39,228 bases of DNA from a virus (IMGVR_UViG_3300037010_001530:1-39228); one strand, 5' to 3'. Numbered from the stretch's first letter, positions 7,424-25,390 are shown. Notes: generated from the letters alone by a model not told the origin. Numbers and translations are program-made.

Positions 7424-7482
7424 CAGAGAAACATCAAACCACTGCTCTTCACCGGTCAAGGCAAAACCACAGCGTGCCTTAA

Positions 7483-7510
7483 TTTATCAGAAACGTTTTA
7501 CTGTTCACAA
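7483..7510 (-). promoter_or_regulatory. Candidate late promoter
   Basis: On the minus strand, TTGTGA (7510-7505) and GATAAA (7488-7483) are separated by 16 bases. The site lies directly after the Q-like gene and about 60 bases before the hairpin at 7423-7376. The match to sigma-70 boxes is moderate. Support comes mainly from its position. Confidence 0.4.
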
Positions 7511-7511
7511 T

Positions 7512-11061: not shown

Positions 11062-11118
11062 TTGCCCCCCCCCAGCACGCCCACATAGGCGTCAGGCAGC
11101 ACCACACCGCCATTTTTG

Positions 11119-11406: not shown

Positions 11407-11777
11407 CAGGCGGCCCCCCCCAGCAGCACCCGGCGCAACGCTGCGTTTTCCTCGCGCAAATGCCGGTTTTGCTTTTCAGTCTCAGACTCCAATTTGCGCA
11501 CACTGTGCAAGTCAAACCCGCGCTGATGCAGCATCCAAAGTAGTGGTGCCTCGTTGCCGCAAATATCCATCAGCTTGGAGAATTTCGGCCACAAAATGCC
11601 CTCAGTGCCAGACATCCAGCGGCTGAACTGCGCTTTGTCAACGCCCAATTCCTGCTGTAGCTGCTTATCCAGAGAAAACCCGGCCAGCTCCGCACACAGT
11701 TCAATTGATGCACCCAAAGACTGCTTGCGCTGAACGTCTTCAGGTCTGATTTCTACCGGTAAAGCGACTTGGTTCAT
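11406..11777 (-). CDS. CII-position regulatory protein
   Basis: 123 residues from ATG 11777 (an upstream TTG at 11789 is less likely). Residues about 20-60 hold a helix-turn-helix, LQQELGVDKAQFSRWMSG. The C-terminal third (ESETEKQNRHLREENAALRR) is a coiled coil suited to oligomerisation. It is the second gene after Cro and lies beyond a terminator, the position of lambda cII. The combination of HTH and oligomerising helix is also that of CII-like activators. No sequence identity with CII is claimed. Confidence 0.65.
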   Translation of the reverse strand: MNQVALPVEIRPEDVQRKQSLGASIELCAELAGFSLDKQLQQELGVDKAQFSRWMSGTEGILWPKFSKLMDICGNEAPLLWMLHQRGFDLHSVRKLESETEKQNRHLREENAALRRVLLGGAA

Positions 11778-11823
11778 GTGACCCCGCAATCGAGTTGAGT
11801 GCCGTTGTGTGGCTCAAACAGAC

Positions 11824-11858
11824 AAAAAAAATGATGATTTGCACAAATGCAAATCACC
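11824..11858 (-). terminator. Rho-independent terminator after the Cro-like gene (tR1-like)
   Basis: On the minus strand, GGTGATTTGCA, loop TTTG, TGCAAATCATC, then T8 (positions 11858 down to 11824). The stem has 11 pairs including one G-U. It starts 3 bases beyond the Cro stop and precedes the CII-position gene, just as lambda tR1 does. It would limit expression of replication genes unless antiterminated. Confidence 0.85.
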
Positions 11859-11861
11859 ATC

Positions 11862-12113
11862 TCACACCCCCTGCCCTTGCTGGGCCAGCTCTGGCCAATA
11901 GAACGCGAACTTTTCCGGCCAGCGTTCACGGCGGTTGAATCGGCCTTCGCTTTTGATCTCGATCTGCCCAGCCAGCTCTCGCAAGCGGCCCTCGGGTATG
12001 CCGTCCTCCAACCAAGCGTGAACAGATGGCGGTTTGATCCCCAACATGCGGGCCACAGCCGTGACCCCGCCAAGCAGATGAATGATTTCGGTGTCGGTCA
12101 TAGTGGTACACAT
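11862..12113 (-). CDS. Cro-like repressor
   Basis: 83 residues (or 79 from ATG 12101, MTDTEIIHLLGG). The HTH is GGVTAVARMLGIKPPSVHAW followed by LEDGIPEGRLRELAGQIEI, characteristic of the small Cro/YdaS-type repressors of lambdoid phages. It is divergent from the CI-like gene, with three operators between them. It should bind these operators and lower repressor synthesis during lytic growth. It is the first gene of the early minus-strand operon. Confidence 0.85.
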   Translation of the reverse strand: MCTTMTDTEIIHLLGGVTAVARMLGIKPPSVHAWLEDGIPEGRLRELAGQIEIKSEGRFNRRERWPEKFAFYWPELAQQGQGV

Positions 12114-12114
12114 C

Positions 12115-12176
12115 TTAGCTACAACTAACCTATAAATCTAGCCCCAACTAACTTTTATTTTGTTAGGCTCAACTAA
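12115..12176. promoter_or_regulatory. Immunity operators O1-O3 between CI-like and Cro-like genes
   Basis: Three 14-bp sites in the same orientation: TTAGCTACAACTAA (12115-12128), CTAGCCCCAACTAA (12138-12151) and TTAGGCTCAACTAA (12163-12176). Their spacing is 23 and 25 bp. Consensus YTAGSYHCAACTAA is an imperfect palindrome with TTAG and CTAA half-sites. The third overlaps the start codon of the repressor gene. The arrangement is that of a lambda-type OR with divergent promoters. A possible plus-strand -10 box TATAAA lies at 12131-12136; the exact promoters are not clear. Confidence 0.85.
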
Positions 12177-12631
12177 TGGGAACCACACTAAGAGACAGGA
12201 TGCTTGATTGCATAAAAGCAACCGGCCTTAAGAACGAACAGATAGCTGTTGAGTGTGGTGTTGCCGCCCCAACTTCATTTAATTGGACATCCGGGAAAAC
12301 AAAAAAAATCAAAGCTGAGCCCTTACTGAAGGCTGCAAAGTTGTTTGGTGTCACTCCCGAATGGCTGGCAACAGGCAAACAACCAAAATACCCGCCTGAT
12401 GGATCACAACCAATCCTTCAATCAGCCAAGGCGACTTATTTGATAGGTCCTAAACAGGACAAAATGACCACAGAGCTTGTTGACCTATTCAGCCAACTGG
12501 ACAAGGCCAGTAAACACGAATATCTTGGGCAGCTTCGGGGTTTTGTTATGGGCCGCAGCGTCAAGGCCAAAGACCCGCCAGCGGAACAAAGCGGGCCCGC
12601 GAAGATGGAGAGAACCGGTACCCACGCGTAA
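12176..12631 (+). CDS. CI-like prophage repressor without protease domain
   Basis: 151 residues. An XRE-type HTH fills the N-terminus (MLDCIKATGLKNEQIAVECG, then VAAPTSFNWTSGKTKKIKAE), followed by LFGVTPEWLATGK, a typical end of this domain. The remainder (about 80-125: TTELVDLFSQLDKASKHEYL) is a short helical segment that may dimerise. The S24/LexA-type peptidase domain with Ser-Lys dyad found in cleavable repressors is absent. SOS self-cleavage is therefore not expected, and induction may need an antirepressor or another signal. Operator O3 covers the start codon, which suggests autoregulation. The first gene of a plus-strand operon ended at 14077. Confidence 0.85.
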   Translation: MGTTLRDRMLDCIKATGLKNEQIAVECGVAAPTSFNWTSGKTKKIKAEPLLKAAKLFGVTPEWLATGKQPKYPPDGSQPILQSAKATYLIGPKQDKMTTELVDLFSQLDKASKHEYLGQLRGFVMGRSVKAKDPPAEQSGPAKMERTGTHA

Positions 12632-12733
12632 CCGCCACTCTGCTGATGTTTACTGCTTTCTGTCCTACAAAATTACAAAAGCCAGCCGGGCAACGTCGTT
12701 TGGAAAACTTTAATTTCCACCTAGGAGCGGCGT

Positions 12734-13228
12734 ATGGGTATTGGAAGACTGTTGACATGGGGTTTTTCGGCCATGCTGATCCTCATTCCGTTCAATTGGA
12801 TCAAACTGTGGCTTACCAACGACCTGCCGGAATCATCCAGCGCGTCGGATCTGTTTCTTTGGGCTGGCGGCCTTTGGGCGCTAGGTGGGGGATTAGCGTA
12901 CTTCCTGATCGTCAGCGCCCGCGGACTCAAAAGCCTCAACGAAAAATCATCTAGTGCATTGCTTGCCCCGAACCGGGCAGCCGAACAATGCTCATTAAAG
13001 ATTGTTTATTTAGACGCTAACGACCAAAAAACAACGCGCGACATTCACCCCTGTAGAACCGGCGCGACCAATCGCAAGTTCTATGCATGGTGCGCGCTGC
13101 GCCAAGAACGCCGCACATTCCTTTTTGAAGGCATTCAAAGCGGCGTTGACCTAACAACGGGAGAAATCCTTTCTCGCGTTGACATTTTCAGAAAAATTCA
13201 CCCAACCAGGAAAGTACCTTTTATATGA
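12734..13228 (+). CDS. Two-TM membrane protein with WYL-like domain
   Basis: 164 residues; TAGGAG precedes ATG 12734. Two membrane helices lie at about 8-27 and 38-61. The cytoplasmic part (about 85-155: LKIVYLDANDQKTTRDIHP, FYAWCALRQERRTFLFEGI, TTGEIL) follows the pattern of WYL-like domains: a beta-barrel with an R...TF.....I core, often found in regulators and bacterial conflict proteins. It lies just after the repressor and should be made in the lysogen. A role in superinfection exclusion or host defence is inference. The alternative is an ordinary lysogenic-conversion membrane protein. Confidence 0.7.
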   Translation: MGIGRLLTWGFSAMLILIPFNWIKLWLTNDLPESSSASDLFLWAGGLWALGGGLAYFLIVSARGLKSLNEKSSSALLAPNRAAEQCSLKIVYLDANDQKTTRDIHPCRTGATNRKFYAWCALRQERRTFLFEGIQSGVDLTTGEILSRVDIFRKIHPTRKVPFI

Positions 13229-13311
13229 AAATTCACGTGAAGCCATTTGTAGCTATTGCCACCACTGCCTGTAGTGCGGGACTTTACGGTTACCACTGCA
13301 AGGTGCGCTGA
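13225..13311 (+). CDS. Possible 28-residue peptide
   Basis: A 29-codon frame overlapping the previous stop as ATGA. It starts MKIHVKPFVAIATTAC and ends YGYHCKVR, with a basic N-terminus, a short hydrophobic run and two Cys. The junction type matches coupled genes elsewhere in this genome. Length and lack of family make it uncertain. Confidence 0.35.
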   Translation: MKIHVKPFVAIATTACSAGLYGYHCKVR

Positions 13312-13357
13312 TCAAGCAGTGCAAGCAATGATGATCCATTTAATAAAAGGGGCGAAC

Positions 13358-13747
13358 ATGAAACAACTTATCACCATATTGATTTTAATCGGTGCGCTTA
13401 CAGGCTGCAACACAGCACCAATCGCCCAAGCTGAACTTGACAACGCCGACTATGGTCAGCCCATGACCACACAACAGTGCGCAAACGTTGCCGAACAATT
13501 TATTAGATCTACTCTAAAAGACCCGATGTCTGCACAATTCACGACCTATAGTAAATGTGTCAAAGGCGTTCTACGGGACGGACTAATAAACGGTGGAAAG
13601 ACACACTTTGGATATTTACAAAAAGGCACTGTGAATGCAAAAAATAGCTACGGAGGCTATGTGGGTTTTAGATCGTACCAAGCAATCATCCGCGATGAAA
13701 TAGTGGTCAGCTACTGCATCATTAACGAAGACGGCATTTGCATGTAA
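13358..13747 (+). CDS. Prophage lipoprotein
   Basis: 129 residues from ATG 13358, preceded by AAAAGGGG; the longer frame upstream has no ribosome-binding site and hides the signal. The N-terminus MKQLITILILIGALTGC is a lipoprotein signal with lipobox LTGC, so Cys17 should be lipidated. The mature part contains FIRSTLKDPMSAQFTTY and NAKNSYGGYVGF, a pattern I have seen in small lipoproteins of Proteobacteria and their prophages. No function is established. Expression with the repressor would place it in the lysogen's envelope, where superinfection exclusion is a possible role. Confidence 0.8.
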   Translation: MKQLITILILIGALTGCNTAPIAQAELDNADYGQPMTTQQCANVAEQFIRSTLKDPMSAQFTTYSKCVKGVLRDGLINGGKTHFGYLQKGTVNAKNSYGGYVGFRSYQAIIRDEIVVSYCIINEDGICM

Positions 13748-13771
13748 GCCCAAAGCAACATGCGATGACAA

Positions 13772-14017
13772 ATGAACGGCATCGTCCGCATCCTTTCCAG
13801 ATCGCGACTGCGAGCCGCCGTCGAGACGGACGATGGCTTCACGGTCTTCGACCTGGATGATGTAATGGTGGATTTGGGACACACCGTTAGCGGATGCCTA
13901 AACCAGCACGGAGCCGTGGATCTGTCCAATCTAAGCACCACACATACATTTTCCGCATACGTTGAAGCCATTCAGGCCACCAGAGCAAACGCTGAATGTC
14001 TGTGTCGTAGTAGGTAG
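13772..14017 (+). CDS. Small hypothetical protein of the lysogeny operon
   Basis: 81 residues. The N-terminal half (GIVRILSRSRLRAAVETDDG then FTVFDLDDVMVDLGHTV) looks like a small beta-barrel (OB/SH3-like). The C-terminus is HTFSAYVEAIQATR. No clear ribosome-binding site is seen. It is the last gene before the terminator at 14052. No function is recognised. Confidence 0.6.
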   Translation: MNGIVRILSRSRLRAAVETDDGFTVFDLDDVMVDLGHTVSGCLNQHGAVDLSNLSTTHTFSAYVEAIQATRANAECLCRSR

Positions 14018-14051
14018 TGCACGAGAAGAACAAGCCTCGTGTCGTGGCATC

Positions 14052-14077
14052 AACGATCCTTTGGGGTCGTTTTTTTT
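14052..14077 (+). terminator. Rho-independent terminator of the lysogeny operon
   Basis: AACGATCC, loop TTTG, GGGTCGTT, then a run of T to 14077. The 8-pair stem includes one U-G. It separates the repressor operon from the retroelement operon, which therefore needs its own promoter. Confidence 0.9.
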
Positions 14078-14139
14078 CGTCTGTCATTGTGAAATCCTTA
14101 TCCCGGCACCATGCCGGGTGCTGGATTATTGCAAATAAG

Positions 14140-14181
14140 TTAGTTACAGCTATTGACGGCAAGTTAGTTTGTGCTAATAAT
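14140..14181 (+). promoter_or_regulatory. Promoter of the retroelement operon with two immunity operators
   Basis: The -35 box TTGACG (14153-14158) and -10 box AATAAT (14176-14181) are 17 bp apart, a strong sigma-70 promoter. TTAGTTACAGCTAT (14140-14153) touches the -35 box and TTAGTTTGTGCTAA (14164-14177) fills the spacer. These are the reverse orientation of the O1-O3 consensus (TTAGTTG...CTAA), and their 24-bp spacing matches the 23/25 bp in the immunity region. Repressor bound here would block RNA polymerase. A small GC hairpin CCCGGCA/TGCCGGG lies upstream at 14102-14118. Confidence 0.85.
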
Positions 14182-14223
14182 CTACTCCAACCCACCCCTC
14201 CCCAGGTGGTCAAGGAGTGAACA

Positions 14224-14841
14224 GTGTCAGCCTTCAAATTCAAACTGGGCCAGCAAGCCCGCATCATCGTCAGCGGTGAAATCGGCGAAGTCATTGCCGT
14301 CGCTGAATACCTGCACGCAGAGAACAGCTACTGCCTGCGCTACAAATCCGCAGATGGCCGCGCCAATGAAGCATGGTGGGCAGAGTCCTCTTTGCAGGCT
14401 GGCGAAGCTGCCACCACACCAGCACCGACCCAATCCACCACCCCACCGCCCATAGGCCAACCTTGGCCGGGCCAAGGCGGCATCTACGCCGGCATTGCCG
14501 GTGACATCGAAGGCGGCGCACCCGGCCACCTGATCCTGCTTGACGGTAAGCCGGTCGATGAACTGTCCTGGCAATACGCCGTCAAGTGGGGCCAGGACCA
14601 AGGCGAAGGCGCACGCCTGCCCACCAAGGCCGAGGCCGCACTGTTGTTCGCCAACCTGCCAGATGCGTTTGAGAAAACTTGGCACTGGACCGGCACGCAG
14701 TACTCAGCCGACTACGCCTGGTATCAGTACTTCGATTACGGCACCCAGGACATCGGCTTCAAGCACGACACAGGCAGGGCCAGGGCTGTCCGCAGATCGG
14801 TTCTTGAATCCTTCAATCCTTTGGTTTCGGGGGCCGTATGA
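14224..14841 (+). CDS. DGR target protein 1: SH3-like domain plus C-type-lectin-like variable domain
   Basis: 205 residues from GTG 14224 with AAGGAG upstream. Residues 1-56 (FKLGQQARIIVSGEIGEVIA, then YCLRYKSADGRANEAWW) look like a small SH3/KOW-type barrel. A Thr/Pro linker follows to about 77. From about 78 (IGQPWPGQGGIYAGI, LPTKAEAALLF, WHWTGTQYS) it is a DUF1566-like C-type-lectin-fold domain, the usual DGR scaffold. Residues 157-191 are encoded by the variable repeat. Compared with the template, Asn codons are changed to Asp, Tyr, Thr, Gly, Phe and His. There is no signal peptide or tail-attachment module, so it is probably cytoplasmic until released. First gene of the operon. Its binding partner is unknown. 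Confidence 0.9.
   Translation: MSAFKFKLGQQARIIVSGEIGEVIAVAEYLHAENSYCLRYKSADGRANEAWWAESSLQAGEAATTPAPTQSTTPPPIGQPWPGQGGIYAGIAGDIEGGAPGHLILLDGKPVDELSWQYAVKWGQDQGEGARLPTKAEAALLFANLPDAFEKTWHWTGTQYSADYAWYQYFDYGTQDIGFKHDTGRARAVRRSVLESFNPLVSGAV
14694..14797 (+). repeat. Variable repeat VR1
   Basis: Aligns without gaps to the template at 20444-20547. Inside 20445-20547 it differs at 14 positions, all adenine in the template. The last 27 bases (from CAGGCAGGGC to CGCAGAT) are identical and GC-rich, like the initiation-of-mutagenic-homing segment of other DGRs. The first base (C against template A) may mark the boundary. Confidence 0.97.
14801..14823 (+). repeat. VR-associated pyrimidine element, copy 1
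   Basis: TTCTTGAATCCTTCAATCCTTT begins 3 bases after the VR core ends and lies inside the target coding sequence. The same element, at the same offset, follows VR2 but not the template. It contains the short tandem unit AATCCTT twice. Confidence 0.7.
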
Positions 14842-15011
14842 CCTACCGCCAAGCCTTTGACCGACTAGGCAACCCAGTTGCCCGCCGCGTGCGTTTTGTC
14901 TGGCTGCGCCGCATTGCCGAATCCATCGACGCCGACGGCGTTGCCATCGTTGTGGGCACGATCACCGCCGTTGCCATCGTCGGCATGTGGATGTCGGGGG
15001 TGTACCTATGA
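14838..15011 (+). CDS. Small single-TM protein
   Basis: 57 residues; start and stop are both 4-bp ATGA overlaps with neighbours. A basic N-terminal region (RLGNPVARRVRFVWLRRIAE) precedes one membrane helix (GVAIVVGTITAVAIVGMW). It is too short for a family call. It sits between target 1 and the exonuclease. Possibly holin-like or a membrane anchor; nothing decides this. Confidence 0.7.
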   Translation: MTYRQAFDRLGNPVARRVRFVWLRRIAESIDADGVAIVVGTITAVAIVGMWMSGVYL

Positions 15012-15574
15012 GCCACGACATCATGCTGGACCTTGAGACGTTGGCCACCACGTCTGATGCCATCATTCTGAGCATCGGCGCAGTGCGTTTTGACCTGGAC
15101 GCGGGGCTGGTCTTTGACGAACCCGAGTCCGTGTTTTACCAAAGTATCGCCATCGACAGCCAACTCGATCGCAAGATCAGCGGCAGCACCCTTGCCTGGT
15201 GGATGATGCAGAGCAACGAAGCCCGCGCGGTGTTTTGTGAACCCAATGGCACGCTTTACGACGCGCTCGACGGACTAGGGGCATGGATTGCCCCGCAGCT
15301 CGACACCCAAACCCATGTCTGGAGCAACGGCGCCGACTTTGATCTACCCATGTTGGTGCACGCCTACGACCAGCTTGAGCTATCTCTGCCTTGGCCTGTC
15401 TACGGTGGCCGCTGCTACCGCACCTACAAAAACCTGCCTGGTGCACGCGGCGTGAAGGTGCTTCGCCAAGGCCTGCATCACAACGCGCTTGACGATGCCA
15501 TTTTTCAGGCCAAGCACCTGTGCGCTATCCACCGGGCATTGTTTCAAGCCACCGCAGCCGAGGTGGCAACATGA
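15008..15574 (+). CDS. DEDD-family 3'-5' exonuclease (Rv2179c-like)
   Basis: 188 residues from ATG 15008, which overlaps the previous stop; an upstream ATG at 14987 is out of operon register. Motif Exo I is MLDLETLA, Exo II lies around WSNGADFDLP, and Exo III is HNALDDAIFQA with the His and Asp four residues apart. These are the four acidic residues and His of DEDDh nucleases. The family resemblance is to the Rv2179c-type exoribonucleases of phages and actinobacteria, which trim RNA or DNA from the 3' end with two metals. Within this operon it could process the retroelement RNA or cDNA, or act on host RNA; that is speculation. Confidence 0.88.
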   Translation: MSHDIMLDLETLATTSDAIILSIGAVRFDLDAGLVFDEPESVFYQSIAIDSQLDRKISGSTLAWWMMQSNEARAVFCEPNGTLYDALDGLGAWIAPQLDTQTHVWSNGADFDLPMLVHAYDQLELSLPWPVYGGRCYRTYKNLPGARGVKVLRQGLHHNALDDAIFQAKHLCAIHRALFQATAAEVAT

Positions 15575-15738
15575 ACGAATTCGACGACTTGGACAAACTC
15601 ACCCCGCACTGGTGGGAAAGCGCCGCGCTGATGGGCGCCCTAGCCATGATCATCCTGTTCGTGGTCGGCTGCATCAGCTTCACCACCGGTTACGCCTGGG
15701 GCTACTTGCACGCTGGCATTTTGGCTGTGCTGGGCTAG
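15571..15738 (+). CDS. Small single-TM protein
   Basis: 55 residues, coupled to the exonuclease by ATGA. An acidic start (MNEFDDLDKLTPHWWE) is followed by a long hydrophobic helix (ALMGALAMIILFVVGCISF) and a second short apolar stretch. It is the second small membrane protein in this operon. No family is recognised. Confidence 0.7.
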   Translation: MNEFDDLDKLTPHWWESAALMGALAMIILFVVGCISFTTGYAWGYLHAGILAVLG

Positions 15739-15741
15739 GCC

Positions 15742-16071
15742 ATGAAGCCCGCCGCCACCAATGCCGCCCTGCTGGAATACACCGGCACCCTGATTGCTGA
15801 CGCTCAGGCTCGCACCAAGGTGCTTGATGCCGAAGGCCACAGCGTGCCGGTGGTGTGTCTGGACCTAGAGCTTGACAACGCTTTGCACAACCTCATGCGG
15901 GCTGAGCAACTCTTCCCGCTTGACCACTATGCCCAAGCCCATGCGCGCGCGCACCAACTCAAAAAAGGCATGCGCGTTGCCGTGCAAGCCCCGCCCATTG
16001 ATCTGCGGCTAATTGCATGTAACGCCGCGCATATCCACGTTATCAACCCCACCGACCAACCAGCATCATGA
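15742..16071 (+). CDS. Hypothetical protein, possibly OB-fold nucleic-acid-binding
   Basis: 109 residues. Beta-rich segments TGTLIADAQARTKVL, VPVVCLDLEL, KKGMRVAVQAPPIDLRLI and AAHIHVI follow the strand order of an OB-fold and recall small phage single-strand-binding proteins. It starts 3 bases after the previous stop and overlaps the next gene by ATGA. The SSB idea is weak, as no aromatic DNA-contact pattern is obvious. Confidence 0.65.
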   Translation: MKPAATNAALLEYTGTLIADAQARTKVLDAEGHSVPVVCLDLELDNALHNLMRAEQLFPLDHYAQAHARAHQLKKGMRVAVQAPPIDLRLIACNAAHIHVINPTDQPAS

Positions 16072-16364
16072 AAATGCCTACCCCACCCAACCCCGAAGCC
16101 ATTCGCTTTGAAGCCCAAAAAGCAGCCTGGCTGTACGACACGGTCATTCAAGGTTGCCCCTATCCGTTTGGCACTGAAGCTGCCCGCATCTTCAAGACCG
16201 AGTTTGACATTGCCAAACAAGCCCAGGCTGACGCAGGCGCACCGGCACCCAAGGTTCCATCGCCCAACCAAAACAAGATGGCTGACAAGTATGACCCGCC
16301 CGCCCGCACCTACTACCGCAACAACGGCAACGTCCACGTGCCCAGCGCGGGCGTGCCCTGCTGA
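16068..16364 (+). CDS. Hypothetical protein
   Basis: 98 residues, ATGA-coupled to the gene before. The N-terminal about 55 residues are helical (PEAIRFEAQKAAWLYDTVI, then EAARIFKTEFDIAKQAQ). The remainder is a Pro/Asn-rich tail ending HVPSAGVPC. No motif is recognised. Confidence 0.6.
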   Translation: MKMPTPPNPEAIRFEAQKAAWLYDTVIQGCPYPFGTEAARIFKTEFDIAKQAQADAGAPAPKVPSPNQNKMADKYDPPARTYYRNNGNVHVPSAGVPC

Positions 16365-16380
16365 TCCAGAGGCCAGCACC

Positions 16381-16782
16381 ATGAACCACGAAAACTACCA
16401 ATTCAAGCCTTTTACTGGTCTGGTGATTTCAGGCCCCCAAGGCAGCGGTAAAACAACTCTGGCACAAACCATTGCCAGTCAGTACGGAGAGTTTCGACAA
16501 ATAGAAACAGGACCAGGCTGCTACTTTGATCGGGAAGTGCACAAAGCGCTTTACAGCGAGGCCAAGACGCTGATCATCAACGGCATACCGTCTCAAGACG
16601 AACTTGCGGTCATAAAGAGCATGGTGACCAGCCGCACCATGGCGGTCCGGCGGCCCTATACCGAAACACCAATCAGCAGGCCTTCGCCAAAAATCATTCT
16701 GTGCACCGAGCACGCAGATTGGCTACCCGATGAGTCGCGGCGCTTCGAAGTCATCCAGCTCAGCCAAAGGAAATCATCATGA
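16381..16782 (+). CDS. Small P-loop NTPase
   Basis: 133 residues from ATG 16381 (the frame is open further upstream but overlaps the previous gene; AGAGG lies before this start). Walker A is SGPQGSGKTTLA near residues 17-28. A hydrophobic strand KTLIINGIP and a late strand KIILCTEHADWLP could serve as Walker B and sensor strands. The fold is minimal, and no clear acidic Walker B is seen. It is coupled by ATGA to parB. It is not a deviant-Walker ParA. It may be a kinase-like or helper ATPase for the ParB-type protein. Confidence 0.75.
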   Translation: MNHENYQFKPFTGLVISGPQGSGKTTLAQTIASQYGEFRQIETGPGCYFDREVHKALYSEAKTLIINGIPSQDELAVIKSMVTSRTMAVRRPYTETPISRPSPKIILCTEHADWLPDESRRFEVIQLSQRKSS

Positions 16783-18914
16783 GCATTCAATTCGCTACCC
16801 TCCCGTTAAGCGCCGTCGTCAGCAGCCTGACTAACCCGCGCAAAACATTCAACGCCACCAAGCTGGCCGAGCTGGCCGCCAGCATTCAGGCCAGCGGCGT
16901 GCACCAGCCCATCCTGGTGCGCCCACTACCAGGCAGCCGCACCGCAGACACGGATCGCGCAGTCACGCACGAAATCGTCAGCGGCGAGCGGCGCTACCGT
17001 GCCAGCCAGCAAGCCGGTGCCACCAGCATCCCCGCCATGATCCGGGAGCTGACCGACAACCAGGTGCTTGAAATCCAACTTGTCGAAAACCTGCAACGTG
17101 ATGACCTCACCGAATTGGAAGAGGCCGAAGGCTACCAGGCACTGATGCACGCCAGCAGCATGACGGCTGACGCCATTGCTGCCAAGATCGGCAAAAGCCG
17201 CAGCTACGTGTTTGCCAGGCTCAAGCTGTTGGACCTGTGCCCAGAGTCCCGCACCGCCCTGCATGACGGCACCATAGACGCCAGCCGCGCCCTGATGCTG
17301 GCCCGCATCCCAGACCACAAGCTGCAGATCAAGGCGCTGGCTGAGATCACCCAAAAGGACTACAACGGCGAGCAATACATGAGCGTGCGCGGTGCGTCCG
17401 CCCACATCCAGCAACTGTACATGCTGCGCCTAGACGCCGCCCCGTTCAAGCCCACCGACACCACCTTGTGCCCCGAGGCCGGATCGTGCAAGGCCTGCAG
17501 CAAACGCACCGGCCACGACCCCGACCTGTTTGCCGACGTGAAAGGTGCAGACGTCTGCACCGACCCACCTTGCTACCACCGCAAAGAGCAAGCCCACAGC
17601 GCGGCCCAGCTCAAGGCCGCGCACGACCGGGGCCAGACCATCATCGAGGGCCGTGAAGCCAAAGCCCTCATGCCCAACAGCTATGGCAAGGTCGAAGGCT
17701 ACCTGCGCCTGGACGAAGCCCGTGACAGCCCCACCGACAAGCCCCTGCGCAAATTGCTGGGCAAGCAACTCGCGGCCGAAGGCATCCAGCCCACCCTGAT
17801 TGCCAACCCGCACAAAGCCGGTGAGCTGATCGCCGTGCTGCCTGAGGCCAAGGTCGCCCAGCTGCTCAAAGCTCAGGGTCAGGACGATGCGGCCAGCAAG
17901 GTCAGTCAACACGTCAAAGACAGCAAAAAGGCTGAGGCCGCTGCAGCCAAACAAAAGCTGGAAACCGAGTACGAACAAGGCTGGCGTCACGCGGTGCTTG
18001 AGCGCACCTGGGCAAAAATCCAGAACGACGGCGAAGAAGCCAGCCTGACCGACAAGCTCTTGCGCTACCTGGCCATGGGTTACGCCAAAAGCTGCAACAC
18101 CGACCGCGCCAAGCGCCTGGGCAAGCTGCTTAACCTGGGCAAGGTCGCACCGCTGCAAGGCCTCACCGACTACGTGCGCGACTGCGAGCACCCGCAAGAC
18201 GTGCTGCAGCTGCTGGTGATGCATGCCGATGTGGAATACCGCAGCTGGCTGCCTGCCGAAGACAGCAACGCTGGCCTGCTGTTGGTGGCGTCCGACTACC
18301 AGGTGGACATTGATGAAGTCAAAGACGAGATCAAGGCCCAGATGCGCAGCGCCATGCCCCAAGCCAGCCCCATCATGTACCGTGGCCCCAATGGCGAGAC
18401 ATGGTCCGGCCGTGGCCTCAAACCCAAATGGGTCACCCACTACCTGGCCACCGGCGGCGAACTGGCTGACTTGCAGGTCAACCCATCGCCAAAAACACCC
18501 CTACCCCAATCCCCCGCTGCGCAAGCGCAGGGTATGGGTAAGGCCAAAAAGCCAAAAACCTCTGCTGCGCAAGCCCAAGCCCTGATTGCTGCTGCGCTGC
18601 AGAGTCAAGAGTCAGAGACCAATCCAGGCGCTGACGCGCAGGGCAACCTGCCTGACAGTAGCCAGCCTGTAGCCACGTCCGCCGCTGGCGCGTCGGGTGT
18701 GGCTCAGGCTGAAGCATTTACCGTTGGCCAGCGGGTGCGTATTACCACCAACCGCGACAAGCTGGGCATCATTGCCCGCAAGTGGGGCGGCAAAGAAGGC
18801 ACGGTCACACGCCGTGAGTCAGGTGGTGGCTACTGGGACGTGACCTTTCGCGGCCGCAACGGCGGCGTGGCCCTGTTCGCGGCTGACCAGATTGACCAGG
18901 TGGTGCCCGCATGA
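16779..18914 (+). CDS. Large ParB-family protein with C-terminal SH3-like domain
   Basis: 711 residues, about twice the length of ordinary ParB. The N-terminal ParB/Srx domain carries TNPRKTF, the GERRYRA box (69-75) and ENLQRDDL (103-110). A HTH follows (about 129-150, MTADAIAAKIGKSRSYVFAR). Five Cys at 231, 237, 240, 260 and 265 suggest a zinc site. A long helical region and an Ala/Gln-rich linker lead to a C-terminal barrel (about 646-711: FTVGQRVRITTNRDKLGI, then GGYWDVTFRG). ParB-type domains bind CTP and load on DNA, and some phage forms are nucleases. There is no ParA, so segregation is unlikely to be its only role. Confidence 0.9.
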   Translation: MSIQFATLPLSAVVSSLTNPRKTFNATKLAELAASIQASGVHQPILVRPLPGSRTADTDRAVTHEIVSGERRYRASQQAGATSIPAMIRELTDNQVLEIQLVENLQRDDLTELEEAEGYQALMHASSMTADAIAAKIGKSRSYVFARLKLLDLCPESRTALHDGTIDASRALMLARIPDHKLQIKALAEITQKDYNGEQYMSVRGASAHIQQLYMLRLDAAPFKPTDTTLCPEAGSCKACSKRTGHDPDLFADVKGADVCTDPPCYHRKEQAHSAAQLKAAHDRGQTIIEGREAKALMPNSYGKVEGYLRLDEARDSPTDKPLRKLLGKQLAAEGIQPTLIANPHKAGELIAVLPEAKVAQLLKAQGQDDAASKVSQHVKDSKKAEAAAAKQKLETEYEQGWRHAVLERTWAKIQNDGEEASLTDKLLRYLAMGYAKSCNTDRAKRLGKLLNLGKVAPLQGLTDYVRDCEHPQDVLQLLVMHADVEYRSWLPAEDSNAGLLLVASDYQVDIDEVKDEIKAQMRSAMPQASPIMYRGPNGETWSGRGLKPKWVTHYLATGGELADLQVNPSPKTPLPQSPAAQAQGMGKAKKPKTSAAQAQALIAAALQSQESETNPGADAQGNLPDSSQPVATSAAGASGVAQAEAFTVGQRVRITTNRDKLGIIARKWGGKEGTVTRRESGGGYWDVTFRGRNGGVALFAADQIDQVVPA

Positions 18915-19411
18915 GCACCCGCCCCAAACGCAAACCCCGCTGGCTGCCCACGCCCGACACCTTGGCGCTGGCCCTGCACCATGCTGCCAAGCCCCCGGCA
19001 GCTGACATACAAGACCTACTGCACACCCTGCAAGACGCCCACCGGTGCATGCGTGAAGGCGTCGCAACCAGCCGCCACTGGGCTATTTTGGCAGGCGCTT
19101 TGTCAGCCGCGCAGGCCATCGAGCGCCGGGGCATTGTGCGTGGCCTGGCTGGCCACCTCAACGCCGCCACACCCGCGCTGGATGCCATCTACCTTCGGGC
19201 TATGAAAACAGGCACCTGGCGTGCCACCGCTTTGCGCTACGACGAACTGGATGCCATCGCCACTCTCGCTGAACTTCACACCTTCCAGATCCACCAGCTG
19301 GGCCGTGCAGAGCTGCTGGCCGCTATCGCCAGCGCTGCAAACAAGATTCGCGCCAACGGCGACACCGTCACCCTTTCCCAAACCCCCAACCTTGAAAGAC
19401 TCGCAGCATGA
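18911..19411 (+). CDS. Hypothetical helical protein
   Basis: 166 residues, joined to parB and to target 2 by ATGA overlaps on both sides. A basic start (STRPKRKPRWLP) is followed by an all-helical body (DIQDLLHTLQDAHRCMREGV, LAGALSAAQAIERRGIVRGL, LDAIATLAELHTFQIHQLGR). It has no signal or TM segment. No family is recognised. Its place next to the ParB-like gene suggests a partner, without proof. Confidence 0.7.
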   Translation: MSTRPKRKPRWLPTPDTLALALHHAAKPPAADIQDLLHTLQDAHRCMREGVATSRHWAILAGALSAAQAIERRGIVRGLAGHLNAATPALDAIYLRAMKTGTWRATALRYDELDAIATLAELHTFQIHQLGRAELLAAIASAANKIRANGDTVTLSQTPNLERLAA

Positions 19412-19893
19412 CGACTACCACACCCACACCCCGCATCGGTCAACCCTGGCCAGACCAAGGCGGCATCTACGCCGGCATCATGGCCGGGCGCGATGGACAG
19501 CCTGATTACCACCTGATCCTGGCACCGGCTGAAGCAGGCGCGTTTAAAGACGTTGAATGGGGCCCCTACGGCAAAAGCATCGACGGTGCTGCCAGCTACT
19601 TTGACGGCGTGGCCAACACCGCTGCCATGGCTGCAGCTGACCTTGACCTGGCCAAGCGCATCTTGGCGCTGCAGATCGACGGCCATGCCGATTACCACCT
19701 GCCCAGCCAGGCCGAAGCCCACCTGCTGGCAGCCAATCTCAAAGACCAGTTCGAGCAGGACGACTTTTACTGGACCAGCACGCAGTACTCAGCCTACGGC
19801 GCCTGGACTCAGGACTTCAGGGACGGCTACCAGTTCATCCTCACCAAGGGCTACCCAGGCAGGGCCAGGGCTGTCCGCAGATTAATTCTTTAA
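19408..19893 (+). CDS. DGR target protein 2: C-type-lectin-like variable protein
   Basis: 161 residues, ATGA-coupled to the gene before. It lacks the SH3-like domain of target 1 and begins directly with the shared scaffold (IGQPWPDQGGIYAGIMAGRD). DLAKRILALQIDG, LPSQAEAHLLAANL and FYWTSTQYS follow, the DUF1566-like lectin fold. Residues 124-158 are the variable repeat, with Tyr, Gly, Asp, Arg, Phe, Leu and Pro replacing template Asn/Lys. The protein ends RRLIL just after it. It directly precedes avd, the same order as mtd-avd-TR-RT in Bordetella phage BPP-1. It has no tail-binding part, signal peptide or TM segment. Confidence 0.9.
   Translation: MTTTTPTPRIGQPWPDQGGIYAGIMAGRDGQPDYHLILAPAEAGAFKDVEWGPYGKSIDGAASYFDGVANTAAMAAADLDLAKRILALQIDGHADYHLPSQAEAHLLAANLKDQFEQDDFYWTSTQYSAYGAWTQDFRDGYQFILTKGYPGRARAVRRLIL
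19779..19882 (+). repeat. Variable repeat VR2
   Basis: Aligns without gaps to the template 20444-20547. Inside 20445-20547 it differs at 18 template adenines and at one T (20472, T to A). The 3' segment is identical to the template for 28 bases (to CGCAGATT). Together VR1 and VR2 vary at 21 of the 34 adenines between 20445 and 20520. Confidence 0.97.
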
Positions 19894-19907
19894 TCCTTTA
19901 GTCCTTT
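19886..19907 (+). repeat. VR-associated pyrimidine element, copy 2
   Basis: TTCTTTAATCCTTTAGTCCTTT matches copy 1 at 14801 in 19 of 22 bases, at the same distance from the VR core. Here it contains the stop codon of target 2 and is otherwise non-coding, so its conservation is at DNA level, not protein level. Confidence 0.7.
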
Positions 19908-19912
19908 ACAAC

Positions 19913-20272
19913 ATGAGCCTTCACACTGATCTACCCATTTATAAGAAGGGCTGTGACCTCTTGCGGCTGGCGTTCAACGTCCAGCAGCAAATGCCACGCA
20001 GCTTCAAGCGTACCCTGGGCGAAAAGATCACCGTGCACTGCACGGACATGCTTGACCTCATGGCCATGGCCAACGCCACCCAGGGCACCAACCGGGTGGT
20101 GCACATCCGCGAACTGCTCAAGCTGCAACACACCACCACAGTGTTGCTGCGGGTGTGCCATGACATGCGCTTTATCTCCCCCAAGGTGTGGGCTGACTCA
20201 GTGCAGCTGCTGGGCACCATTGGCAAGCAAGGTGGTGGCTGGCTCAAATCGGTTAAGGCGCCTGCAGCATGA
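19913..20272 (+). CDS. avd: Accessory variability determinant Avd
   Basis: 119 residues, basic and all-helical, with the four-helix-bundle pattern of Avd: LPIYKKGCDLLRLAFNVQQQ, MPRSFKRTLGEKITVHCTDM, HIRELLKLQHTTTVLLRVCH, ISPKVWADSVQLLGTIGKQ. Avd forms a barrel-like pentamer that binds reverse transcriptase and template RNA and is needed for mutagenic homing in BPP-1. It lies between VR2 and the template, as in BPP-1. It starts 19 bases after target 2 without a clear ribosome-binding site and ends in an ATGA overlap with the reading frame that leads into the reverse transcriptase. Confidence 0.9.
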   Translation: MSLHTDLPIYKKGCDLLRLAFNVQQQMPRSFKRTLGEKITVHCTDMLDLMAMANATQGTNRVVHIRELLKLQHTTTVLLRVCHDMRFISPKVWADSVQLLGTIGKQGGGWLKSVKAPAA

Positions 20273-20443
20273 AGGTCAAGGCCCCCATGCCCGTGCGCAC
20301 ATTGAATCTGGTCGTGCCGCTGGGCCACAAGCCCACCGCCATGCGCACCACAGACACCGCTGCACCCGTGCAGGCCTGGTCTGGCGCAGTTGCCCCGCTG
20401 ATCGGCCCAGGCCTTCGGCGCGGTGATGTAGATAGCACGCATC

Positions 20444-20547
20444 AACGCAGTACTCAGCCAACAACGCCTGGTATCAGAACTTCAAAAACGGCAACCAGAA
20501 CATCAACAACAAGAACAACACAGGCAGGGCCAGGGCTGTCCGCAGAT
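20444..20547 (+). repeat. DGR template repeat TR
   Basis: The A-rich copy from which both variable repeats are written. Read in the frame of the targets it encodes TQYSANNAWYQNFKNG and NQNINNKNNTGRAR, a run of Asn (AAC) codons typical of templates. The 3' part from 20521 is GC-rich and identical in all three copies. It is transcribed as part of the operon between avd and the reverse transcriptase, and its RNA is copied with errors at adenines. One AAT-type codon appears to have become TAT (20472-20474). Confidence 0.97.
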
Positions 20548-20565
20548 TCAACCCCCTACGCATTC

Positions 20566-21648
20566 GTGGACCTGGTGCAAGCCTACCTCGATTGCCGCGC
20601 CACTAAGCGCAACACCGCCAGCGCGCTGGCGTTTGAAGAGCGGCTGGAAGCCAACCTGGTCAACCTGCACGACGATTTGTGCAGCGGCCACTACCGCCCC
20701 GGCCGCTCTATCTGTTTTGTCAACCTGCGCCCCAAACCGCGTGAGGTATGGGCCGCCGCGTTTCGCGACCGCATCGTTCACCATCTGCTTTACAACCACA
20801 TCAGCCCCCGGTTTTACGCCAGCTTCATTGCCAACAGCTGCGCCTGCATCCCCGGCCGTGGCACCCTGTACGCTGCCCAGCGGCTGGAGCACAGCGTGCG
20901 GTCCATCACCCAGAACTGGAGCGTGCCAGCCCACTACCTCAAGATGGACTTGGCCAACTTCTTTGTCGCCATCGACAAGCACGTGCTGCGGGCCCAGATC
21001 GCCCAGCGCGTCACAGAGCCGTTCTGGTTGGCGCTGGCAGACACCATCCTGTTTCATGACCCGCGCCAGGACGTAGAGCTGCGTGGCGACAGTGCCAGGC
21101 TCGCCCTGGTGCCACCGCACAAACGCCTGATGAATGCGCCCAGCCACTGCGGGCTGCCCATAGGCAACCTCAGCTCACAGTTCTTTGCCAACATCTACCT
21201 GGACGCGTTGGACCAGTTCTGCAAACACCAGGTGGGTGCCAAGCACTATGTGCGCTATGTGGACGACTTCATCATCCTGCACCCCTCACCCCAGTGGTTG
21301 CACCAGGCGCTGGCCAGAATCACCGCGTGGCTGCCAGAGCACCTGGGTGCACACCTTAACCCCACCAAGACCATCCTGCAGCCCATAGCGCGCGGCATTG
21401 ACTTCGTGGGCCACGTGATCAAGCCCTGGCGCCGCACCACCCGCAAGCGCACCCTGGCCACCGCCGTGAGCCGCTTGCGCACCATGCCCTCTGCAGACGT
21501 GTTTACGGCAGGCAATTCATACCTTGGGCTGATTGGCCAAGCCAGTCACGCCCACACCGATCGCGCCACGCTGGCCAACGTCCTGCTGAGGCGCGGCCAT
21601 GCGGTGAAGAACGACTTTTCAAAGATTTACAGGAGGCACACCCCATGA
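20566..21648 (+). CDS. DGR reverse transcriptase
   Basis: 360 residues if started at GTG 20566, just after the template; 459 if started at ATG 20269, which overlaps the avd stop as ATGA and reads through the template in another frame. The short form matches the usual DGR RT length and begins where the RT fold begins. Motifs by short numbering: catalytic Asp in LKMDLANFF (D128), the DGR hallmark GLPIGNLSSQ (196-205, SQ in place of the QG of group II intron and retron RTs), and YVDD (231-234). A thumb-like basic tail (RRTTRKRTLATAV) follows. It copies template RNA into adenine-mutated cDNA that replaces VR1 or VR2. No start has a strong ribosome-binding site. Confidence 0.95.
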   Translation: MDLVQAYLDCRATKRNTASALAFEERLEANLVNLHDDLCSGHYRPGRSICFVNLRPKPREVWAAAFRDRIVHHLLYNHISPRFYASFIANSCACIPGRGTLYAAQRLEHSVRSITQNWSVPAHYLKMDLANFFVAIDKHVLRAQIAQRVTEPFWLALADTILFHDPRQDVELRGDSARLALVPPHKRLMNAPSHCGLPIGNLSSQFFANIYLDALDQFCKHQVGAKHYVRYVDDFIILHPSPQWLHQALARITAWLPEHLGAHLNPTKTILQPIARGIDFVGHVIKPWRRTTRKRTLATAVSRLRTMPSADVFTAGNSYLGLIGQASHAHTDRATLANVLLRRGHAVKNDFSKIYRRHTP

Positions 21649-21854
21649 GAGCCAGCCCCACCGAGGTGGTTGAAATCCAATGCGAAGTCAAGCGCCAGAC
21701 CGACAAAGCGTGGCTGGTGTTTGACGGCGCGCGCGAGGTCTGGATTGCGAAGTCGCAGATCAGCGATTACGTCGAAGAGCAAGGCCAGATCAGCAAGAAG
21801 GTCACCAGCGTGTTTATCCCGCTGTGGCTGGCACATGAGAAGGGGTTGATATGA
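21645..21854 (+). CDS. Small hypothetical protein
   Basis: 69 residues, ATGA-coupled to the reverse transcriptase and to the HNH gene. A small beta-barrel pattern, VEIQCEVKRQTDKAWLVFDG then REVWIAKSQISDY, is common in short phage proteins of unknown role. It ends PLWLAHEKGLI. It may be an OB/SH3-like nucleic-acid or protein binder. Confidence 0.7.
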   Translation: MRASPTEVVEIQCEVKRQTDKAWLVFDGAREVWIAKSQISDYVEEQGQISKKVTSVFIPLWLAHEKGLI

Positions 21855-22354
21855 AAGCGCAAACTCTTACAGCTGAACGACTTAGAGAGTTGGTCAACTA
21901 TGACCCAGATTCAGGCTTGTTTTTTCGTCTAAAAAAGCCATTTCGTGGTTTTGGATCAATTGGTGATCAACTTGGGATATTGACCAAATTCGGCTACTTG
22001 GTATTTCGAGTTGATGGTACTCAGCACCGTGCCCATCGTCTTGCATTTTTGTACATGACTGGTGCATGGCCGGACTCAGTAATTGATCACATGGATGGTG
22101 ATAGAACAAACAATAAATGGTCAAACTTGCGAAGTGTTTCCGAAAGTGTCAATCAACAAAATCGCAGAGCCGCGCAAAAAGGCAATAGCAGTGGTGTGCT
22201 TGGTGCTAGCTACAGCTCCAGAAAAAGAAAGTGGCGGTCATCAATTCGCGTAAATGGTAAATGGGTTGGCTTAGGTTATTACTCAACGCCAGAAGATGCT
22301 GGCAATGCATATCTTGTTGCCAAACGCAAATTTCATGAAGGGTGCATGATATGA
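21851..22354 (+). CDS. HNH endonuclease with AP2-like DNA-binding domain
   Basis: 167 residues. The N-terminal half has an HNH core: HRAHRLAFLYMTGAWP, then VIDHMDGDRTNNKWSNLRSV. The C-terminal about 55 residues (GVLGASYSSRKRKWRSSIRV, then GYYSTPEDAGNAY) form an AP2-type DNA-binding domain. This architecture is that of free-standing phage homing endonucleases, which cut DNA lacking them and spread by repair. The gene is visibly richer in A and T than its neighbours, which suggests recent entry. It keeps ATGA junctions on both sides, so the insertion did not break the operon. Confidence 0.9.
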   Translation: MKAQTLTAERLRELVNYDPDSGLFFRLKKPFRGFGSIGDQLGILTKFGYLVFRVDGTQHRAHRLAFLYMTGAWPDSVIDHMDGDRTNNKWSNLRSVSESVNQQNRRAAQKGNSSGVLGASYSSRKRKWRSSIRVNGKWVGLGYYSTPEDAGNAYLVAKRKFHEGCMI

Positions 22355-22575
22355 CCAACACCGACCCCGTAAACCACCCACCCCATTACACCAGCCATCC
22401 GAGCGGTGTGGAGTGCATCCAAGTTGTGGAGCACATGGGCTTCAACCTGGGCAATGCCATCAAGTACGTCTGGCGGGCAGACCTCAAACATGACGCCGTG
22501 GAAGACCTGCGCAAAGCCCGCTGGTACATCGAGCGCGAGATACAAAAGCGCACGCGCTTGGAGGTGATCAAATGA
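22351..22575 (+). CDS. DUF3310 protein
   Basis: 74 residues from ATG 22351 in the ATGA overlap. The sequence HPPHYTSHPSGVECIQVVEH and IKYVWRADLKHDAVEDLRKA matches the DUF3310 family (SaV-like), small phage proteins often near nucleotide-metabolism or replication genes. The His-rich start and helical remainder resemble MazG-type helices. Biochemical role unknown. Confidence 0.85.
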   Translation: MTNTDPVNHPPHYTSHPSGVECIQVVEHMGFNLGNAIKYVWRADLKHDAVEDLRKARWYIEREIQKRTRLEVIK

Positions 22576-22817
22576 ACGAAATATTGACCGAAGCCGAAGT
22601 GGCCGAGCTGCTTGACTGCGAACCCAGCACCGTGCAAACGCTTGCGCGTGAGGCCAAGATTCCGGCCATCAAGGCGGGGCGGTCTTGGCGCTTTCCACGG
22701 CAGGCGCTGCTGGATGCGCTGAACGATCAAGCCCGTGACAGAATGACCACCCGAGAGCAAGCGCAGCCCAGGGTGATCAAGGTGAAGCCGGTGCGACCTT
22801 GTTTGGTGGGGTTGTGA
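22572..22817 (+). CDS. Excisionase-like MerR/HTH_17 protein
   Basis: 81 residues. The N-terminus EILTEAEVAELLDCEPSTVQ, TLAREAKIPAIKAGRSWRFP is the winged helix of the excisionase family that also includes many phage Xis proteins. The basic tail is RVIKVKPVRPC. It is the last gene of the retroelement operon and faces the integrase end to end: the two stop codons abut in TGATCA. Being driven by the repressor-controlled promoter, it would be made on induction, as expected for an excision factor. Confidence 0.75.
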   Translation: MNEILTEAEVAELLDCEPSTVQTLAREAKIPAIKAGRSWRFPRQALLDALNDQARDRMTTREQAQPRVIKVKPVRPCLVGL

Positions 22818-23957
22818 TCACCCCAACCGCGCCGCCAAATCTTCCCCCCGCATAGACGCATAACGCAGGGCCATGCGGGTGTCGGCCCAGCCCATGATGC
22901 GGCAGACTTCAATCTCTGAAAACACCCAGCGCCCAGCTGCATCGCGCAGCTCAAACCAATCACAGGTTGCGCAGTGGCGCAGGTCATGCTCGGTGCAGTC
23001 AAGCACCTGGGCATAGGCAAACAGCGTGGCAAAGCGGGCGCTCAGGCGCATGGTGCAGCGGGGCTTGTCTTCTGGCGTGCCGTCCCACAAGTCAAACACC
23101 CGGCCCACCCTGGCCTTGCACCACTTCTGCATCAATGGGCGCAGCGGCTTGACCATGGGCACCACGCGGGGCTTGGTGGCGCCACGGTGGCCTTTACTGC
23201 CTTCCACCTTGATCACCCAGCGCACCATATCGATCTGATCCACCCGCAGGCGGTAGGCTTCGCTTAAGCGCATGCCGGTGGCCAGAATCAATTCAAACAG
23301 CAGGGCAAACCCTGCATCCTCGCCCCAGGCCCGCTGACGATCCGTCCGCACCTTGCCAGCCAGTGCATCACGCACGCGCACAAGCTCTGCCGCATCCAGC
23401 CGCCGATTGCGCTCCGTGTCGCGTTTGGGCTTCAATCCGGCTTTGGATAGCTGGGTAACCTCGGCTTTGGTGGGGCTGGCATAGCCGCGTGGCATTTGGC
23501 GCAAGGGGTTCACCGCCGCTTGGCCACGGCGCCGGTGGTGCCAATCAATGGCGCGGGCCAGCACCTCGACCCGCTTGCGGATGGTGCTGGGCGCCAGGTG
23601 GTCAGTCACTTTCATGCGGCCAACCCACAAATCGGCCCAGGTTGCGTTTACCTCGCTCAGCTTGGTGTTGCCCTCAGACCGGCTCACCAAATCAAGCACA
23701 GGCCGATCTGACGGGGCAATGTTTGAGTCGGCTAGGTACTGCTTGATGATCTTGGCCAAGCGGGTGTTATCGGTGCGAGTTTGGTCTTGCACCAGCAGCT
23801 CAGCGGGCACCATGCCACGGTCGAGCAGGCCTTCAAGCGTGGCGCCATAGGTCTTGGCCTCAGCCTCAGAATCAAACGTGCTGAAAAACGGTTTGGGCAG
23901 CAGCTTGTGGACAACCCGAAGCTGCCACCGACTGCCACGCGGTTGAATGCTGGCCAT
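22818..23957 (-). CDS. int: Tyrosine-recombinase integrase
   Basis: 379 residues from ATG 23957 (MASIQPRG; an in-frame ATG 15 bases upstream also exists). The N-terminus is an arm-binding domain followed by a SAM-like core-binding domain (about 60-150). The catalytic domain shows the Arg of LATGMRLSEAYRL (R230), a Lys in VEGSKGHRG, HDLRH (H324, R327), Trp in MGWADT (357) and the nucleophile Tyr in LRYASMRG (Y366). It integrates the phage at the bacterial tRNA-Cys gene whose 3' half lies 190 bases upstream. It is transcribed on its own, convergent to the excisionase-like gene. Confidence 0.95.
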   Translation of the reverse strand: MASIQPRGSRWQLRVVHKLLPKPFFSTFDSEAEAKTYGATLEGLLDRGMVPAELLVQDQTRTDNTRLAKIIKQYLADSNIAPSDRPVLDLVSRSEGNTKLSEVNATWADLWVGRMKVTDHLAPSTIRKRVEVLARAIDWHHRRRGQAAVNPLRQMPRGYASPTKAEVTQLSKAGLKPKRDTERNRRLDAAELVRVRDALAGKVRTDRQRAWGEDAGFALLFELILATGMRLSEAYRLRVDQIDMVRWVIKVEGSKGHRGATKPRVVPMVKPLRPLMQKWCKARVGRVFDLWDGTPEDKPRCTMRLSARFATLFAYAQVLDCTEHDLRHCATCDWFELRDAAGRWVFSEIEVCRIMGWADTRMALRYASMRGEDLAARLG

Positions 23958-23973
23958 GCCACCATTGTGCACA

Positions 23974-24008
23974 AAACTCGCCTAAACGGACAAACTCGCC
24001 TAGACGGA
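23974..24008. repeat. Tandem arm-type integrase sites
   Basis: AAACTCGCCTAAACGGA (23974-23990) and AAACTCGCCTAGACGGA (23992-24008) differ at one base and have an 18-bp period. They lie between int and the attP core. The second shares CTAGACGGA with the core itself (24175-24183). Most likely integrase arm-binding sites. Confidence 0.65.
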
Positions 24009-24026
24009 TACTTTTACAAAACCCAA

Positions 24027-24040
24027 AGTAGCATGCTACT
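24027..24040. repeat. 14-bp perfect palindrome upstream of int
   Basis: AGTAGCATGCTACT lies between the arm-type repeats and the core. The half ATGCTAC recurs at 24099-24105. It could bind the excisionase-like protein or a host bending protein; this is inferred from position only. Confidence 0.5.
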
Positions 24041-24146
24041 AATTTGAGGCTAAAACGAACTGATTTGAGTAAAGTTTCAGCAGTTCCTTACAGCAAAATG
24101 CTACATACTTTGTAGTTCGTAACGCTTGATTTATAAAGGAATTTGA

Positions 24147-24190
24147 TGGAGGCGCGACCCAGAGTCGAACTGGGCTAGACGGATTTGCAA
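24147..24190 (-). other. attP core identical to the 3' half of tRNA-Cys
   Basis: On the minus strand TTGCAAATCCGTCTA, then GCCCAGTTCGACTCTGGGTC and GCGCCTCCA give the anticodon GCA with its loop, the variable loop, the T arm (CCCAG/CTGGG) and the 3' acceptor end with CCA of tRNA-Cys. The 5' half is absent, so it is not a tRNA gene. Integration would restore a full tRNA-Cys at one end of the prophage. Inverted 8-mers GCTAGACG (24174-24181) and CGTCTAGC (24193-24200) flank GATTTGCAAGG and are likely the core integrase sites. Confidence 0.92.
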
Positions 24191-24310
24191 GGCGTCTAGC
24201 AGCCCGCAAAGCCCCTGTTTATGCGGGTTTCAAGCCTGTGGATAACGTGCTACCCGGATCAATCCTTACAGCATCATTTTGACAGGTGTTTTGAGACAAT
24301 CCAACGCACC

Positions 24311-24565: not shown

Positions 24566-24571
24566 CAAAAG

Positions 24572-25159: not shown

Positions 25160-25161
25160 GA

Positions 25162-25389: not shown

Positions 25390-25390
25390 G

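Follow-up and report, generated by a model that had tools for sequence, protein, structure and literature searches.

Diversity-generating retroelements (DGRs) of phages are usually described as host-range switches. The only one understood experimentally, the Mtd/Avd/bRT system of Bordetella phage BPP-1, works in this way, with a single target that binds the receptor at the tail tip, and in a survey that covered over 30,000 DGRs the phage lineages were taken to diversify attachment proteins, with phage targets mostly called tail proteins and other viral targets listed as "unknown" (PMC8144416). Short lectin-only targets of gut phages have been assumed to be Mtd-like (PMC10743442), and those of phage Magia were noted in passing in its announcement, with a guess at adaptation or host range (PMC7883833); a non-structural class of lectin targets may already have had earlier notice in print. 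Here we analyze a DGR in the record of a temperate siphovirus (IMGVR_UViG_3300037010_001530, 39,228 nucleotides; "the window" below means this whole stretch), which belongs to a widespread lineage whose uniformly non-structural targets differ from the usual description. With roughly even confidence, we read it as an active DGR of a lineage marked by an RT-15 leader that diversifies binding proteins for conflict inside the cell.

The window element shares with BPP-1 a reverse transcriptase (RT) with the SQ motif, the accessory protein Avd, a template repeat (TR) with variable repeats (VRs), adenine-specific change, and a C-type lectin target with its VR at the C-terminus; the two RTs are ~31% identical. 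Where BPP-1 has one tail-tip target, the window lineage has two or three lectin-only targets in the early region, and where BPP-1 has a structured spacer between TR and brt (PMC12875486), the window lineage has a structured RNA 5' of a TR that abuts or overlaps the RT frame. On the sequence evidence of gene position, target architecture, and RNA layout, the window element is not a tropism switch of the BPP-1 type. A closer comparison is with Magia and its relatives Haboob, LPPA56, Cruim01, SC_8, QDWS, and phPA-G, which belong to the same RT lineage (58–68% identity) and, like the window, carry short lectin targets near recombination and immunity genes; Magia and Haboob, the two tested, also have the RT-15 leader. 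The putative antigen-sensor DGRs of multicellular bacteria have likewise been proposed to serve conflict and not adhesion (PMC10907252), though they are cellular conflict systems, whereas no effector domain was found in the window targets.

By every feature tested, the window element is a DGR (Table 1). Differences between TR and VRs fall almost exclusively at template adenines (32 of 33 for VR1 and VR2 together), a clustering that is very improbable by chance (hypergeometric p = 2.2e-7 for VR1 and 1.7e-8 for VR2), and the 3' end common to the repeats, GGCAGGGCCAGGGCTGTCCGCAGA, occurs exactly three times, with zero occurrences expected in shuffles. The RT matches RVT_1 (E = 3e-15) and the PHROG "Reverse transcriptase" family (E = 2e-111), and its YVDD and IGNLSSQ motifs, of the DGR types YxDD and [LIV]GxxxSQ, are conserved in the lineage. 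A preliminary description of this DNA had called a complete DGR (Avd, TR, a YVDD RT with the SQ motif, and two VRs) with adenine-restricted differences, and both calls are borne out by the repeats and family matches; on one point the anatomy needs correcting, in that TR and RT are not separate blocks, as the RT open reading frame (ORF) reads through the TR. It had also placed two targets of 161–205 residues on the strand opposite to the structural genes, beside ParB-type, exonuclease, and P-loop genes, which is what we find. All structural genes lie on the minus strand, which encodes terminase, portal, head, neck, tape measure, tail tip, tail fiber, and endolysin as well as the integrase, whereas the plus strand from ~12.2 to 22.8 kb carries the repressor candidate, the exonuclease, the P-loop protein, ParB, an HNH endonuclease, the excisionase-like protein, and the DGR.

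Table 1. Features of the window, in order of position (aa, amino acids; nt, nucleotides).
Feature	Coordinates	Strand	Evidence and remarks
Window	1..39,228		virus record, temperate siphovirus
Cro-like regulator	11862..12113	-	P22_Cro match
Helix-turn-helix repressor candidate	12176..12631	+	same strand as DGR; weak HTH_19/HTH_3 matches and position; divergent from Cro
Target 1, 205 aa, GTG start	14224..14841	+	N-terminal beta domain of ~60 aa (phrog_8618), linker, C-terminal C-type lectin domain with VR1
VR1	14695..14797	+	14 differences to TR, 14/14 at template adenines
3'-5' exonuclease (Rv2179c-like)	14987..15574	+	
ParB-like protein, 711 aa	16779..18914	+	H-NS C-terminal-type segment
Target 2, 161 aa	19408..19893	+	single complete C-type lectin domain, VR2 at C-terminus
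VR2	19780..19882	+	19 differences to TR, 18/19 at template adenines
Avd accessory protein, 119 aa	19913..20272	+	PF22296, E = 7.8e-11 (above cut-off); phrog_3206 "Avd protein of DGR"
RT-15 structured RNA (Rfam RF03018)	20256..20447	+	172 bits against gathering threshold of 82; directly 5' of TR
DGR RT ORF, 459 aa	20269..21648	+	start overlaps avd stop (ATGA); conserved RT part from ~20560
TR	20445..20547	+	103 nt, 39 A; inside RT reading frame
HTH_17 protein, excisionase-like	22572..22817	+	
Tyrosine integrase	22818..23972	-	
Separate tail fiber protein, structural module	26833..27849	-	phrog_11355; without VR (VR scan)
Tail tip/host-specificity protein (J-like)	27849..31649	-	without VR (VR scan)

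Near-identical public contigs diverge almost always at template adenines of VRs, indicating from their sequences that the element is active. One pair (L076 and L079) differs at 14 of 7,384 bases, all within one VR and all 14 at template adenines, and a second (L068 and L071) at 15 of 9,353 bases, all within VRs and 14 of them at adenines. A contig from another public record of the window's own phage population (L011) aligns to the window along 11.4 kb. The 21 differences between them are confined to VR2 and its immediate edge; the 3' half of the L011 VR is unlike both VR1 and VR2 and departs from the TR solely at adenines. The same sample as that of L011 also holds a companion contig with no difference from the window in 7,569 bases, VR1 included. 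The variation among VRs that the preliminary description had proposed to look for in populations is thus already visible, adenine-linked, in public contigs. At the left end of L011 (positions 1–150), the upstream flank of VR1 leads into a new VR, which is followed by the downstream flank of VR2; this end is either a VR1–VR2 recombinant or an assembly join at the repeat. Lineage-wide ratios of adenine to other differences (2384:45 and 2104:34) are biased, as the scan penalizes other mismatches more, and the unbiased figures are those of the window repeats and the contig pairs. In the 3' flanks of the VRs, taken over all loci, perfect hairpins of at least 7 base pairs occur in 21%, compared with 1.6% in shuffled sequence.

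Relatives of the RT number 361 in viral contigs and 266 in one-per-species genomes. The best 80 of the 361 are 67–100% identical to the window RT, and the best 80 of the 266 come mostly from Burkholderiales, related Betaproteobacteria, and Pseudomonas (Beta- and Gammaproteobacteria), with Acidovorax, Curvibacter, and Rhodoferax the closest among the genome matches listed. Among named phages, RT identity drops from 58% (LPPA56, Magia, Haboob, Cruim01, QDWS, and others) to 35% for the rest, BPP-1 included. Each element usually has two or three VRs, and their placement is uniform: every one of the 166 in the species genomes, and of the ~180 in viral contigs and named phages, is on the RT strand and precedes the RT, so that of ~345 VRs none was found beyond the RT or on the other strand. 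Nor did any VR lie in the structural module of seven phage records (the window, Magia, LPPA56, SC_8, QDWS, Cruim01, and phPA-G), which were scanned as whole records except that Cruim01 was in two pieces and phPA-G was without its first 5 kb.

The surroundings of the targets are those of early and lysogeny genes. Gene clusters common to 63 dereplicated loci encode integrase, a CI-like repressor, a RecE-like exonuclease, methyltransferase, ParB, and HNH proteins, with no tail gene among the annotated common clusters. The clearest view of the lineage plan comes from phPA-G, in which CII, CI, two targets, Avd, RT, exonuclease, methylase, Lar anti-restriction protein, excisionase, and integrase follow one another and the virion genes occupy the other strand; the QDWS neighborhood includes a "host nuclease inhibitor." Relatives of the targets also occur without a DGR RT match, adjoining cI in PMG1 (L003) and PAN70 (L092), and among small unknown genes in the long terminal repeat of the jumbo phage PA5oct (L091), which is described as lytic (PMC6950013). 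A similar lectin domain is found in L179 and L181, where an RT search of both records gave nothing. Judging by their sequences, the relatives in PMG1, PAN70, PA5oct, and L181 may be fixed versions of the same kind of protein. An inspection of the neighborhoods of target homologs, suggested with the preliminary description, has therefore come out in favor of its proposal, with an early/lysogeny setting throughout and none of ~345 VRs off the RT strand or downstream, and homologs with fiber domains were not found as DGR targets of the lineage, though the domain does end large fibers of other phages.

The VR-bearing domain clearly has a C-type lectin fold, according to structure prediction. AlphaFold models target 2 as one such domain from end to end at a predicted local distance difference test (pLDDT) score of 96.4, whereas the N-terminal beta domain of target 1 (~60 residues) is modeled at low confidence. 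Matches of the targets to Lcl_C/DUF1566 (PF07603) are below the Pfam cut-off (27.9 and 23.0 bits against 34.9), and a PDB sequence search with the single targets gave no match. Among solved structures, target 2 is closest to the C-terminal domain of Legionella Lcl (PF07603; Z = 13.2) and a Bacteroides fimbrial tip protein (4eps; Z = 12.7), with animal C-type lectins at Z ~8; Lcl is a collagen-like adhesin, whereas the window domain stands alone and has no export signal. Lineage-wide, the targets comprise 229 distinct proteins with a median length of 197 residues and the VR at the C-terminus. None of the 229 has a lipobox, two have signal-peptide-like starts, and ten have hydrophobic, transmembrane-like stretches, of which those inspected are strands of the lectin core. 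The ratio of nonsynonymous to synonymous substitution rates (dN/dS) is 0.20 outside the VR and ~2.5 inside it, suggesting purifying selection on the targets outside the VRs. The N-terminal domain of target 1 is present in only 1 of 21 related host genomes. Considered as a pointer to a virion role, its homologs have mixed settings: an early position in Bcep176, ParB as the neighbor in an E. coli phage, lysis genes as neighbors in OS31, and the head cluster of a P2-like phage. We also considered moron-like expression; across 133 first targets, terminator and promoter signals upstream were not clearly commoner than at control ORFs. Upstream of target 1 itself are an intrinsic terminator (14052–14071) and a promoter-like site (14153–14181, TTGACG-17-AATAAT), which are not lineage-wide.

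The template RNA is rearranged relative to that of BPP-1. RF03018 is listed in Rfam only as a small RNA (sRNA) gene; in the window and in all 26 other loci scanned it lies directly 5' of the TR, and across 26 sequences 34 of its 56 pairs have changed in both partners, far more than in shuffled or slid controls. RT-15 is seen here to form the 5' leader of the template RNA, structured and conserved. Between the end of the TR and the first conserved RT residue lies a median gap of 21 nt, so there is no place for a structured spacer like that of BPP-1, about 140 nt long. We also considered a 3' spacer concealed within the RT coding sequence and rejected it, the 5' RT coding region having no peak of synonymous conservation. 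In 89 of 158 loci the RT frame runs without a stop across RT-15 and TR, against 0 and 3 for the other two frames, and the TR appears to overlap the RT reading frame in most relatives. In betaproteobacterial elements, the RT frame reads through the TR from the avd stop; in the Pseudomonas type, the start of the RT seems to lie within its own template, because a stop at TR+31 is followed by an ATG at TR+40/43, as inferred from the frames.

In the explanation that we prefer, reverse transcription of the template RNA would introduce errors at adenines, and the 3' ends of both target genes would be replaced by the mutated copies. The enzymatic steps from RNA to error-prone complementary DNA belong to established DGR biochemistry, and the outcome of the replacement is seen in the repeats themselves. 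The products appear to be C-type lectin-fold proteins that stand alone, lack export signals, and have their genes on the early/lysogeny strand. Within the infected cell or the lysogen, they would work as binding proteins able to evolve, gaining affinity either for host proteins that change (in counter-defense or host take-over) or for those of competing phages, and the DGR would tune intracellular conflict, not receptor choice. We thus regard the targets as probably cytoplasmic, non-virion binders under directed diversification, and infer a counter-defense or anti-competitor role. Of the two halves of the preliminary proposal, small stand-alone lectin-fold targets outside the structural genes hold across the lineage (~345 VRs and seven phage records), and action inside the cell is the best interpretation we can offer. 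That a large lineage of temperate-phage DGRs evolves no receptor binding at all but cytoplasmic lectin-fold, antibody-like binders against host defenses or rival phages, on a rearranged template RNA with its structure 5' of the TR and the TR doubling as RT coding sequence, is a more tentative proposal, to which we give somewhat less than an even chance.

Several points weigh against intracellular conflict binders. Domain, PHROG, and PADLOC searches of the targets found no effector domain able to turn binding into action, gene position alone is insufficient to show that the targets are absent from the virion, and the expression timing, location, and ligands proposed for them are predictions. 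Moreover, the target lectin domain also forms the C-terminal tip of large tail fibers in other phages, and a head gene cluster of P2-like type includes one homolog of the target 1 N-terminal domain. These last two observations would also suit a main rival, receptor-binding adaptors that join the tail late, like Mtd, with the DGR switching host range, as would the BPP-1 precedent and the prevailing tail annotation of phage targets, including the Mtd-like view of short lectin-only ones. We nevertheless consider adaptors of this kind quite unlikely, given that every element examined has its targets in an early/lysogeny location on the RT strand, that relatives without a DGR share this early position, that target 2 has no trimerization or tail-attachment domain, and that the window already has tail fiber and tail tip genes, both without VRs. 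Extracellular adhesins, released or exported like Legionella Lcl or bacterial pilus-tip lectins, would agree with the closest folds, yet the 229 targets, free of lipoboxes and almost free of signal-peptide-like or membrane-anchor-like stretches, make export very improbable. It is harder still to credit a relic or an assembly artefact: the mixed VR1 and VR2 flanks at the left end of L011 could have arisen during assembly through the repeat, but the independent pairs L076/L079 and L068/L071 vary only in VRs that are internal to their contigs, RT, Avd, and RNA are intact and conserved, and the targets show purifying selection outside the VRs.

A rival nearer to intracellular conflict binders in general is that the targets protect the lysogen, the diversified proteins recognizing or blocking proteins of superinfecting phages (exclusion). 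The targets lie between repressor and integrase on the repressor strand, in PMG1, PAN70, and Magia relatives follow shortly after the repressor, and binding of phage proteins by DGR proteins has been proposed for cells (PMC10053308). Guarding a lysogen would make no sense, however, for the relative in PA5oct, described as lytic; there is no general terminator–promoter (moron) signature upstream of the targets, and neither target matches a known anti-phage defense model (PADLOC) or defense family. We judge lysogen protection unlikely. Within conflict inside the cell, host-directed counter-defense or take-over appears somewhat likelier than lysogen protection, because phPA-G encodes Lar and a methylase in the same neighborhood, QDWS a "host nuclease inhibitor," and PA5oct, with its described lytic lifestyle, a target relative.

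Targets that are widespread, under purifying selection, actively mutated, and apparently non-structural suggest that phages also invest in directed evolution of proteins other than receptor binders. The lineage includes named isolates infecting Pseudomonas aeruginosa, P. syringae, Burkholderia, and Shewanella, making expression, virion content, and binding partners directly testable. If the binders do act in the cell, they would offer a natural system for evolving intracellular inhibitors and add a new layer to phage–host conflict.

Three further observations concern other genes of the window. The major head protein is cut at the right end (1–1711 and 38727–39228), and the record is for this reason probably permuted or slightly incomplete. 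Adjoining the repressor candidate is a WYL-domain protein (12734–13228) that PADLOC matches weakly (E = 1e-5) to a WYL protein associated with RTs. Finally, the ParB-like protein joins ParB_N and helix-turn-helix domains to an H-NS C-terminal-type DNA-binding segment (residues 533–567), an unusual combination.

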